Notes under the pieces: model-generated
Told to the model about the DNA's origin: nothing
Databases searched by the model: none
What the model saw: the letters and a program-made list of their open reading frames with translations, nothing else
Program-made: the position numbers and the translations under genes
Source of the DNA: a bacterium
GTDB taxonomy: Bacteria > Bacteroidota > Ignavibacteria > Kapaibacteriales > Kapaibacteriaceae
DNA length: 45,056 nt
Assembly (NCBI GenBank): GCA_024711065.1
Contig: JANJTN010000108.1
Location: forward strand, 1 to 45,056
Direction of reading: 5' to 3'
In this document: one piece after another, positions 3,244 through 6,048 of the stretch
How positions within the stretch are numbered: the first letter of the stretch is position 1
Layout: each line of letters opens with the position of its first letter

Positions 3244-4536
3244 TCAGGCGTTAGCGAACCGATCCTGCAAAGTTGGTGCGCGTAAGGTAAACACCGTGAT
3301 CTCCGGAGGAATGCCGATCCGGATCGGCGGTCCCACCGTACCCAGCCCCCTATTCACATACAATGCCTGGTCGCCCTTGCGGTACAGACCGGCCCATTGT
3401 TCATACACGTACTGAGCGGGGCTCCACTCAAAACCAAGGGCTTGCACGCCAAACTGACCGCCGTGGGTGTGGCCGGCCAGCATCAGGTCTACGCTACGCT
3501 GAGAAACCACCTCTTTGTCCCAGAAGGTTGGATCATGCGCCAACAGCACGATGGGCTCTCCCTCCTCCACGCCTTGCAAGGCTTGATCGAGATCACCGAA
3601 GTTCTGGCGGAAACCGGTGTTATCCGTTCCGGCGATCACCACGGAGGCGTCACCGTTGCCAATGCGGCGATGTTCGTTCACGAGCAGGTCGATCCCGAGT
3701 TCTCGGATCCCCTTTACCAGTGCCTGATGCTCGGACGGAGTGTTGTAATGGTCGTGATTGCCAAGCGAGGCCAACACTCCCTCCGGAGCGCGGAACCTGG
3801 CTAGCTCGCCGGCAATGATCTCGAGCTCCTTGGGATGGCTATTCACAAAATCGCCCGTGATGACCACCAGGTCGGGGCGTTGCTCCTGCACCAGGCGTCG
3901 GGCTTCCTGCATGGGCTGGTGGTCGAGATAGGATCCGGCATGCAGATCCGAGATCTGCACCACGCGCATTCCGTCCATGCTGCGAGGCAGGTTTGGCAGG
4001 GTGATGTCGACGTTATAGACCTGGTAGTCATACAGCGTCCGATACAGGCCGTTACCGACAAGGAAGTAGGGTACGGCGGCCAGTGACCATGCGGACTTTT
4101 CCAGAAACGCTCGTCGAGTGGTGCCTTCCGCCGAGACCATCTCATCGACGTCGGATGAGCCATCAGCGTCCGTAACCAGCACGAGGCGCTCCGACTTGCG
4201 AGCCCCCTTCCAATGAAAGAGACGCGCCACCAGTCGTACCAGGTCGCGCAGCAGCAGCACCACCACGATGCCGAACTTGGGAAGGTACCAGAAACTGGAG
4301 ATTCCGATCAGAACGGCATCCAGGCCATCCACGCGGAAGAGGTGACGCCGAAAGACCACCCACGAGGTAACGCCGACCATCACTCCGGCGATGGACCAAG
4401 GGATCACGCGCCACAGGTGGTGCATGGCGTTGCGTTTGGTGAACGCCGACCATCGCGATAGCGTATAGAGATCCATCGCAATGAAGATCAACCCCATCAC
4501 GATGGAGAAGACCAGGATATTCGGAGCGTTATTCAC
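3244..4536 (-). CDS. Membrane-anchored metallophosphoesterase (YkuE/YaeI-like)
   Basis: 430-residue calcineurin-like phosphoesterase. The N-terminal part has three hydrophobic segments (about residues 6-26, 42-63 and 75-100), then a linker and a further hydrophobic stretch near 146-163. The catalytic domain follows with all metal-ligand blocks: DLHAG (~197), GDFV (~228), GNHDHY (~259), LLAHDP (~331) and GHTHGG (~355). This matches the YkuE/YaeI/TMEM86-neighbour type of membrane phosphoesterase, some of which act on UDP-diacylglucosamine-like lipids; the substrate here is unknown. It lies 6 bp downstream of the thioesterase fusion gene, probably in the same transcript. The fold assignment is firm. 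Confidence 0.9.
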   Translation of the reverse strand: MNNAPNILVFSIVMGLIFIAMDLYTLSRWSAFTKRNAMHHLWRVIPWSIAGVMVGVTSWVVFRRHLFRVDGLDAVLIGISSFWYLPKFGIVVVLLLRDLVRLVARLFHWKGARKSERLVLVTDADGSSDVDEMVSAEGTTRRAFLEKSAWSLAAVPYFLVGNGLYRTLYDYQVYNVDITLPNLPRSMDGMRVVQISDLHAGSYLDHQPMQEARRLVQEQRPDLVVITGDFVNSHPKELEIIAGELARFRAPEGVLASLGNHDHYNTPSEHQALVKGIRELGIDLLVNEHRRIGNGDASVVIAGTDNTGFRQNFGDLDQALQGVEEGEPIVLLAHDPTFWDKEVVSQRSVDLMLAGHTHGGQFGVQALGFEWSPAQYVYEQWAGLYRKGDQALYVNRGLGTVGPPIRIGIPPEITVFTLRAPTLQDRFANA

Positions 4537-4542
4537 TAGGGG

Positions 4543-5418
4543 TCAGGTAGTACCGATCGTGATGAACAAGGCATGAGCGTCGGCAACGACCGTTCCGCTG
4601 ATCGCGCGGATCTCTCCCCGTAGGATGTTCTTGCGTCCCTCCTGGCGTTCGATCCATGCCCGGACCTCATACTCCTCGTGTAGACGCATCGGCGAACGGA
4701 AGTTTACGGTCAGTTTGGCGGTGGGTGCTTTCAGACGCTGCACGCTCAGGCACTTGCCCATGCACTCGTCGAGCAGCAGCGATACGAAGCCCCCATGGGT
4801 GATTCCCAGAGAACCCTGCATGCGCTGATCAGGTCGCAGGTAGGTACTCACCTGTTGCTGTTCCAGATCGTGCAGAAACGACAATCCCAGCGAGAACGGA
4901 TTGGCGCCGCCACAGCCCACACAGCAGTTCTCCTTGCGGGGATACAGCACGCGGAAGCGCTCCCTGGCGTAGAGGGGCAAGAACGGGGTTACCCGAAGAC
5001 CCGGCTGTTCGGTGCGAAAACCATAGAACGGTCCCCAAGGCTCGATGAATCGCGAGAGCTCCATTGCCACCTGCGGAACGACCCTGCCCACAGCGCCAAC
5101 GGGCGCATCGTAGTACAGCACTCCGTCTTCGCTGTACGACAGCCGATCCGGGTAGAATGGCACGGACAATGAGGCTGCGTAATGCAGCCGCTCGCCGTCG
5201 AAGGCGGTAAAGACAATCGGCGTATCCGCCGGCCGCAGATAGTTCATCTCGTCGCCGCACCGACTTACGAAGGGATGGTCCGGATAGTGCGGATTCGCCG
5301 TTGGTGCCAGACGCCGAAAGAAGAAATCCACGAACCATGGGTCGTCCTGGATCACTCCGTCCAGCGTAAGCACACCGCGCTCGTCGATCTCGTAGTAGTA
5401 GTCTCGGGATGGTGCCAT
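4543..5418 (-). CDS. DUF4505 (UPF0598/C8orf82-like) domain fused to PaaI-type hotdog thioesterase
   Basis: 291-residue two-domain protein. Residues ~4-150 resemble the UPF0598/DUF4505 family known mainly from animal C8orf82: RDYYYEIDERGVL at the start, then FFFRRL, PFVSRCGDEMNYLR and an IVFT block. Residues ~164-291 are a hotdog thioesterase: a CVGCGGANPF opening, then the catalytic-type GITHGGFVSLLLDE near 204-217 and the characteristic VNFRSPM strand. I chose the internal ATG at 5418 because the DUF4505 motif begins there; the 15 residues before it look non-native. Likely acyl-CoA hydrolysis in the cytoplasm; the role of the N-terminal domain is unknown. It heads a leftward transcript with the metallophosphoesterase. 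Confidence 0.8.
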   Translation of the reverse strand: MAPSRDYYYEIDERGVLTLDGVIQDDPWFVDFFFRRLAPTANPHYPDHPFVSRCGDEMNYLRPADTPIVFTAFDGERLHYAASLSVPFYPDRLSYSEDGVLYYDAPVGAVGRVVPQVAMELSRFIEPWGPFYGFRTEQPGLRVTPFLPLYARERFRVLYPRKENCCVGCGGANPFSLGLSFLHDLEQQQVSTYLRPDQRMQGSLGITHGGFVSLLLDECMGKCLSVQRLKAPTAKLTVNFRSPMRLHEEYEVRAWIERQEGRKNILRGEIRAISGTVVADAHALFITIGTT

Positions 5419-5460: not shown

Positions 5461-5496
5461 CATGAAAGCGTTCCAACCACCTCTCTGGAGGATATG

Positions 5497-6048
5497 ATGG
5501 CATCCACCCTCTCAACCATGATGCCGTTGGGAACGATCGCTCCGGACTTTACGCTGTTCGATACCGTGAGCGGACACCATCTCGGACTGCGCGACACTGC
5601 CGCTCCGGCAACAGTGGTGGCGTTTTTCTGCAACCACTGTCCGTACGTCCTGCACATTATCCACGGCTTCGTGGAGTTTGCCAAGGAGATGCAGCGCCTG
5701 GGTGTGCGCGTGATCGCGATCTCGTCGAATGATCCCGCCCAATACCCGCAGGATGGTCCCGAGCAAATGACGTTGTTCGCGCAACACCATGGTTTTACGT
5801 TCCCCTATCTCTACGATCGCACGCAGGAGGTTGCCAAGGCCTATGGCGCTGCCTGTACGCCGGATCTGTATGTGTTCGACAAAGACCTGACGTTGGCCTA
5901 CCGCGGTCGGTTCGATGCCGCAACACCGGGGAATGCCGAACCGGTTACCGGCAACGATCTACGGGCTGCTACCACGGCCATCATCGCTGGAGACCCGGTC
6001 GGTCCAGACCAGATCCCCAGCATCGGCTGCAGCATCAAGTGGCGTTGA
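5497..6048 (+). CDS. Thioredoxin-fold redoxin (AhpC/TSA, PRX_like1 type)
   Basis: 183-residue cytoplasmic thioredoxin-fold protein (no signal peptide). It shows a GTIAPDFTLFD opening typical of redoxins, a CNHCPYV active-site CxxC near residue 47, and a cis-Pro-type block GAACTPDLYVFD. This pattern is that of the PRX_like1/AhpC-TSA family often annotated as thioredoxin family protein; the physiological substrate is not known. Two adjacent ATGs exist at 5494 and 5497. I chose 5497 because GGAGG at 5487-5491 gives a 5-nt spacing to it but only 2 nt to the first. It is transcribed divergently from the thioesterase gene and its stop abuts the convergent argS stop without a gap. Confidence 0.85.
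   Translation: MASTLSTMMPLGTIAPDFTLFDTVSGHHLGLRDTAAPATVVAFFCNHCPYVLHIIHGFVEFAKEMQRLGVRVIAISSNDPAQYPQDGPEQMTLFAQHHGFTFPYLYDRTQEVAKAYGAACTPDLYVFDKDLTLAYRGRFDAATPGNAEPVTGNDLRAATTAIIAGDPVGPDQIPSIGCSIKWR

Follow-up and report, generated by a model that had tools for sequence, protein, structure and literature searches.

The family UPF0598 (DUF4505; Pfam PF14956) includes human C8orf82, a protein catalogued in the mitochondrial matrix (PMC7066081), for which the C8orf82 literature examined gives no function. A 2010 review knew UPF0598 from Metazoa only, and put forward, on the basis of personal communications, a superfamily that unites it with DUF1285 (PMC2954204). For DUF1285 itself a nucleotide-based ligand was proposed in the inter-domain cleft when the structure was described, and Nudix genes were noted among its neighbours (PMC2954208). 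As to hotdog thioesterases, those that bear on the present locus are THEM4 and THEM5 (4gah, 4ae8, 4ae7) and the PaaI hydroxyphenylacetyl-CoA thioesterase (TIGR02286). We found no earlier report of an architecture that combines DUF4505 with a thioesterase, and the term DUF4505 was absent from the literature searched, most subscription papers lying outside its scope; automatic domain databases may already list the combination.

The window, by which we mean the whole 45,056-nucleotide stretch of DNA that was analysed, encodes a 291-residue protein in which DUF4505 is fused to a hotdog thioesterase (Table 1). A second in-frame ATG is located at 5463, and homologues begin at about the position of 5418. 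The N-terminal half matches PF14956 at residues 4–125 (72.7 bits versus a cut-off of 27.3, E=4.4e-20), the alignment spanning profile positions 9–150 of 177. The preliminary description had assigned residues ~4–150 to this family from the motifs RDYYYEIDERGVL and CGDEMNYLR, both of which are present in the open reading frame; the assignment hinged on profile similarity in that region, where the match lies well above the cut-off, and only the boundary needs to be moved, as the domain ends near residue 125 rather than 150. The hotdog core that had been recognized, THGGFVSLLLDE, is likewise present, and PF03061 (4HBT) exceeds its cut-off at residues 205–278 (38.1 versus 20.6 bits, E=1.9e-9). The protein resembles C8orf82 in that its N-terminal half exceeds the PF14956 cut-off by a wide margin, but differs from it in being bacterial and in carrying a thioesterase.

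Table 1. Features of the fusion gene and its neighbours, in window coordinates.
Feature	Coordinates	Strand	Details and basis
Fusion gene, DUF4505/UPF0598 and hotdog thioesterase	4543..5418	-	291 aa; ATG at 5418, stop at 4543-4545
DUF4505 (UPF0598) domain, residues 4-125	5044..5409	-	Pfam PF14956
CGDEMN motif, residues 54-59	5242..5259	-	Conservation across fused and stand-alone members
Connecting segment, residues 126-158	4945..5043	-	Homologue alignment, structural model
Hotdog thioesterase half, residues 159-291	4546..4944	-	Pfam 4HBT at 205-278 = 4585-4806; structure matches
CxxCG motif ahead of hotdog, residues 166-170	4909..4923	-	Invariant in 39/39 intact fusions
HGG motif, residues 208-210 (H208 = THEM4 H152)	4789..4797	-	Alignment
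D217, predicted catalytic Asp (= THEM4 D161)	4768..4770	-	Alignment
T233, predicted active-site Thr (= THEM4 T177)	4720..4722	-	Alignment
Membrane calcineurin-like metallophosphoesterase (YaeI/LpxG-like, under equivalog cut-offs)	3244..4536	-	6 bp downstream of fusion, same strand
Divergent AhpC/TSA redoxin	5494..6048	+	Conserved neighbour in window's genus and family f5

The solved structures nearest in sequence to the C-terminal half are human THEM4 and Rhodococcus 2ov9, and comparison of the modelled structure confirmed a hotdog fold, with Z scores of 20.3 to 2ov9 and 17.3 to 4gah. His208, Gly209, Gly210, Asp217 and Thr233 are invariant in all 39 intact fusions, and in a HMMER alignment the His, Asp and Thr fall opposite the same residues at THEM4 chain positions 113, 122 and 138. 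Assuming a chain offset of 39, these positions are H152, D161 and T177, which we take to be the catalytic residues of THEM4. The hotdog half therefore appears to contain a THEM4-type active site, and very likely hydrolyses a thioester. The resemblance to THEM4 and THEM5 extends to an N-terminal extension that precedes the hotdog; residues 126–158 overlap the pre-hotdog N-terminal stretch of THEM4 when the model of residues 124–291 is aligned structurally. In contrast with these human enzymes, however, the fusion displays a CxxCG motif ahead of the hotdog, and no DUF4505 domain has been reported in THEM4. The label ‘PaaI-type’ initially applied to this half is appropriate in so far as it denotes the broad hotdog group, since the fold, the HGG motif and the downstream Asp are shared, but the protein scores only 25.8 bits against the 118.9 required by the PaaI equivalog TIGR02286, and no paa genes were seen near the fusion.

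The fusion is the sole DUF4505 gene of the window's genome. Among the 123 genomes of the order to which the window belongs (Kapaibacteria), 46 contain DUF4505; roughly nine of these were assessed by open-frame length alone. All 29 Kapaibacterial loci that were aligned continue into the second half, with both halves intact in 28 and the second decayed in one, and further loci agree with the fusion, bar truncations at contig edges. (Contig JAGFIZ010000017 carries the title Bradyrhizobiaceae, which we rejected; it appears to be a contig of the window's genus, G005:C8, and is probably mislabelled.) The surveys covered bacterial genomes, the phylum draws being samples. In a draw of 296 genomes from the window's phylum DUF4505 matches were confined to this order, and a scan of named genomes with two strict peptide patterns placed the domain mostly in Candidatus Kapaibacterium; no match was found on plasmids. 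Outside the phylum, 15 of 247 Spirochaetota genomes contain DUF4505, all of them in a single order, the Leptospirales (15 of 30 there). Three of these (G331, G508 and G488) encode the same thioesterase fusion as Kapaibacteria, eleven possess a stand-alone DUF4505 of about 150–210 residues, and in one, G442, the domain is fused to a GNAT acetyltransferase (L090:1246-2292), a single case. UPF0598, introduced in the preliminary description as an animal protein, is thus not limited to animals. As the DUF4505-thioesterase arrangement is repeated in dozens of diverged genomes, it does not reflect chance, a frameshift or mis-assembly, and is a real, conserved architecture built from two known families.

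In a tree of the DUF all twelve Leptospirales rows devoid of a thioesterase fall to the same side of a branch with support of 78/91, and the three Leptospirales fusions cluster with four Kapaibacterial rows (support 96/95). The simplest reading of this tree is that there was probably a single fusion event followed by transfer to Leptospirales; the transfer is unproven, however, because monophyly of the Leptospirales sequences was not rejected (AU p 0.22). The suggestion that split versions of the two halves might be adjacent genes was not borne out, as a search with a thioesterase profile around the stand-alone DUF4505 genes in the loci read identified no partner to a distance of about 6 kb. 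Most Leptospirales genomes with a stand-alone DUF4505 do encode a free 137-residue hotdog, which is located away from the DUF4505 gene and carries FGSG or FGIG where the fusions have CxxCG. In the decayed Kapaibacterial fusion of G058 (L007:1492-2361) the DUF half is intact, but HGG and the catalytic Asp are gone from the thioesterase half. Here the DUF outlives the catalytic motif of its partner, and its role therefore need not belong to hydrolysis itself, which suggests that the domain can matter without hydrolysis. Directly downstream of this gene, on the same contig (L036:6342-8367), are a nicotinate phosphoribosyltransferase gene and then an isochorismatase-like gene.

No solved relative of DUF4505 was found by sequence, and a fold search with the full fusion returned, among the matches listed, only hotdogs; the DUF was therefore modelled from a stand-alone homologue, L049 (pLDDT 94.3, pTM 0.88). 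The model matched the DUF1285 structures 2ra9 (E 3.5e-6, Z 11.3, 121 residues, 3.9 Å) and 2re3 (Z 10.0, 139 residues, 4.0 Å), with the next match at a Z of only 2.6. Comparison of the two families with hhalign showed that their profiles are collinear over 110 columns (pairwise E 0.0024, with a probability of only 12%), TPVE of DUF1285 lying opposite SPCGxE of DUF4505. The modelled homologue thus displays the two-lobed DUF1285 fold, supporting the superfamily proposed in 2010. It should be emphasized that the 291-residue protein is not a member of DUF1285 by sequence, as the PF06938 profile (the family is also covered by PF21028) matched neither this protein nor any other in the window's genome.

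To DUF1285 the usual partner is a separate gene rather than a fused thioesterase. Using the residues of 2re3 as query, ten plasmid-borne DUF1285 loci were read, and in seven (L098, L099, L100, L101, L102, L105 and L106) the next gene encodes a CoA-pyrophosphatase-type Nudix protein, as judged by motif or annotation. All six of these Nudix proteins that were scored exceed the cut-off of the NCBIfam CoA pyrophosphatase equivalog NF007980. The Nudix gene is absent from the Paracoccus and Acinetobacter loci, and none was recognized in the Tistrella locus; the DUF1285 gene of Sphingomonas has a GNAT gene a short way upstream. Three connections thus link the superfamily with enzymes of CoA, namely the thioesterase fusion, the GNAT fusion and the pairing of DUF1285 with Nudix. 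The earlier hint that the DUF is related to acyl-CoA chemistry is strengthened by the latter two, although binding of CoA by the domain is still an inference. The three links are independent but circumstantial, and give CoA or acyl-CoA binding by the DUF a probability a little short of even. None of the genes flanking the fusion in Kapaibacteria is a CoA gene, and co-occurrence with acyl-CoA dehydrogenase gave no signal, as this enzyme is found in 120 of the 123 genomes of the order, with or without the fusion. In the literature we found neither a ligand-bound structure of DUF4505 or DUF1285 nor a binding assay or knockout for these families.

Our best reading, which is put forward tentatively, is that the protein is an acyl-CoA thioesterase with an N-terminal module that recognizes CoA or acyl-CoA. 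The C-terminal hotdog would hydrolyse acyl-CoA through the THEM4-type residues His208, Asp217 and Thr233, and the UPF0598 module, with its predicted DUF1285 fold, would recognize the substrate by its CoA (nucleotide) moiety, or else bind free CoA or acyl-CoA; the cleft between the two lobes is the probable site. The module may also tune or feed the thioesterase. It could be argued, instead, that the DUF is a structural, oligomerization or docking module without a CoA ligand, and that the thioesterase works alone while the DUF places it near a partner or holds a dimer. Numerous hotdog enzymes function without such a module, and the high pTM of the single-chain fusion model (pTM 0.87, pLDDT 94) suggests a fixed arrangement of the domains. 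The DUF1285 protein Sbal_2486 is, moreover, a dimer in solution (PMC2954208). However, Cys54, Gly55, Glu57 and Asn59 are nearly invariant in fused and stand-alone DUF4505, and the conserved polar motif (CGxEMN, D..P, GR) common to both looks like a ligand site; stand-alone DUF4505 also exists with no thioesterase next door. We consider a purely structural role rather unlikely.

The cysteine of this motif raises a further alternative, namely that the DUF, organized around the conserved Cys54, senses redox state or sulfur and gates the thioesterase. Cys54 is present in 51 of 54 sequences, a divergent redoxin is found beside the fusion both in f5 and in the genus of the window, and in several Leptospirales (L048, L049, L050, L053 and L056) the stand-alone DUF4505 is near a rhodanese gene, with SufB further on in some. 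DUF1285 has, in addition, earlier been tied to oxidative stress (PMC2954208). The residue is missing, however, from three fusions (it is Ser in L025, for example), and the redoxin, rhodanese and SufB neighbours may merely mirror conserved gene order, making a sensor of this kind improbable. In several Leptospirales the rhodanese-domain gene that faces DUF4505 has a weak DUF1858-like N-terminus.

The gene downstream of the fusion suggests another context, envelope lipid metabolism, in which the protein would deacylate intermediates, or salvage acyl-CoA or acyl-ACP, together with the membrane metallophosphoesterase. The two genes are directly adjacent in the order's families f1 and f3 and in part of f9, often with an overlap of 4 bp; the phosphoesterase resembles YaeI and LpxG, and LpxI was not found in the window's genome. 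However, the similarity lies below both cut-offs (93 versus 350 bits for LpxG), and the adjacency does not occur in f4, f5, f8 or f10, nor in the Leptospirales fusions. We regard this proposal as a slim possibility.

C8orf82 is part of the uncharacterized mitochondrial proteome. If the bacterial evidence is extended to it, UPF0598/DUF1285 could be a hitherto unrecognized CoA- or acyl-CoA-binding fold, in which case the human protein would sense CoA or acyl-CoA in the matrix, or serve there as an accessory factor, and the bacterial fusion would represent its enzyme-coupled form; this broader proposal we hold to be possible but doubtful. The CoA links described here sharpen the 2010 idea that DUF1285 has a nucleotide ligand of unspecified kind, and the thioesterase fusion, the GNAT fusion and the DUF1285-Nudix operon together give a concrete question, namely whether the domain binds CoA or acyl-CoA.
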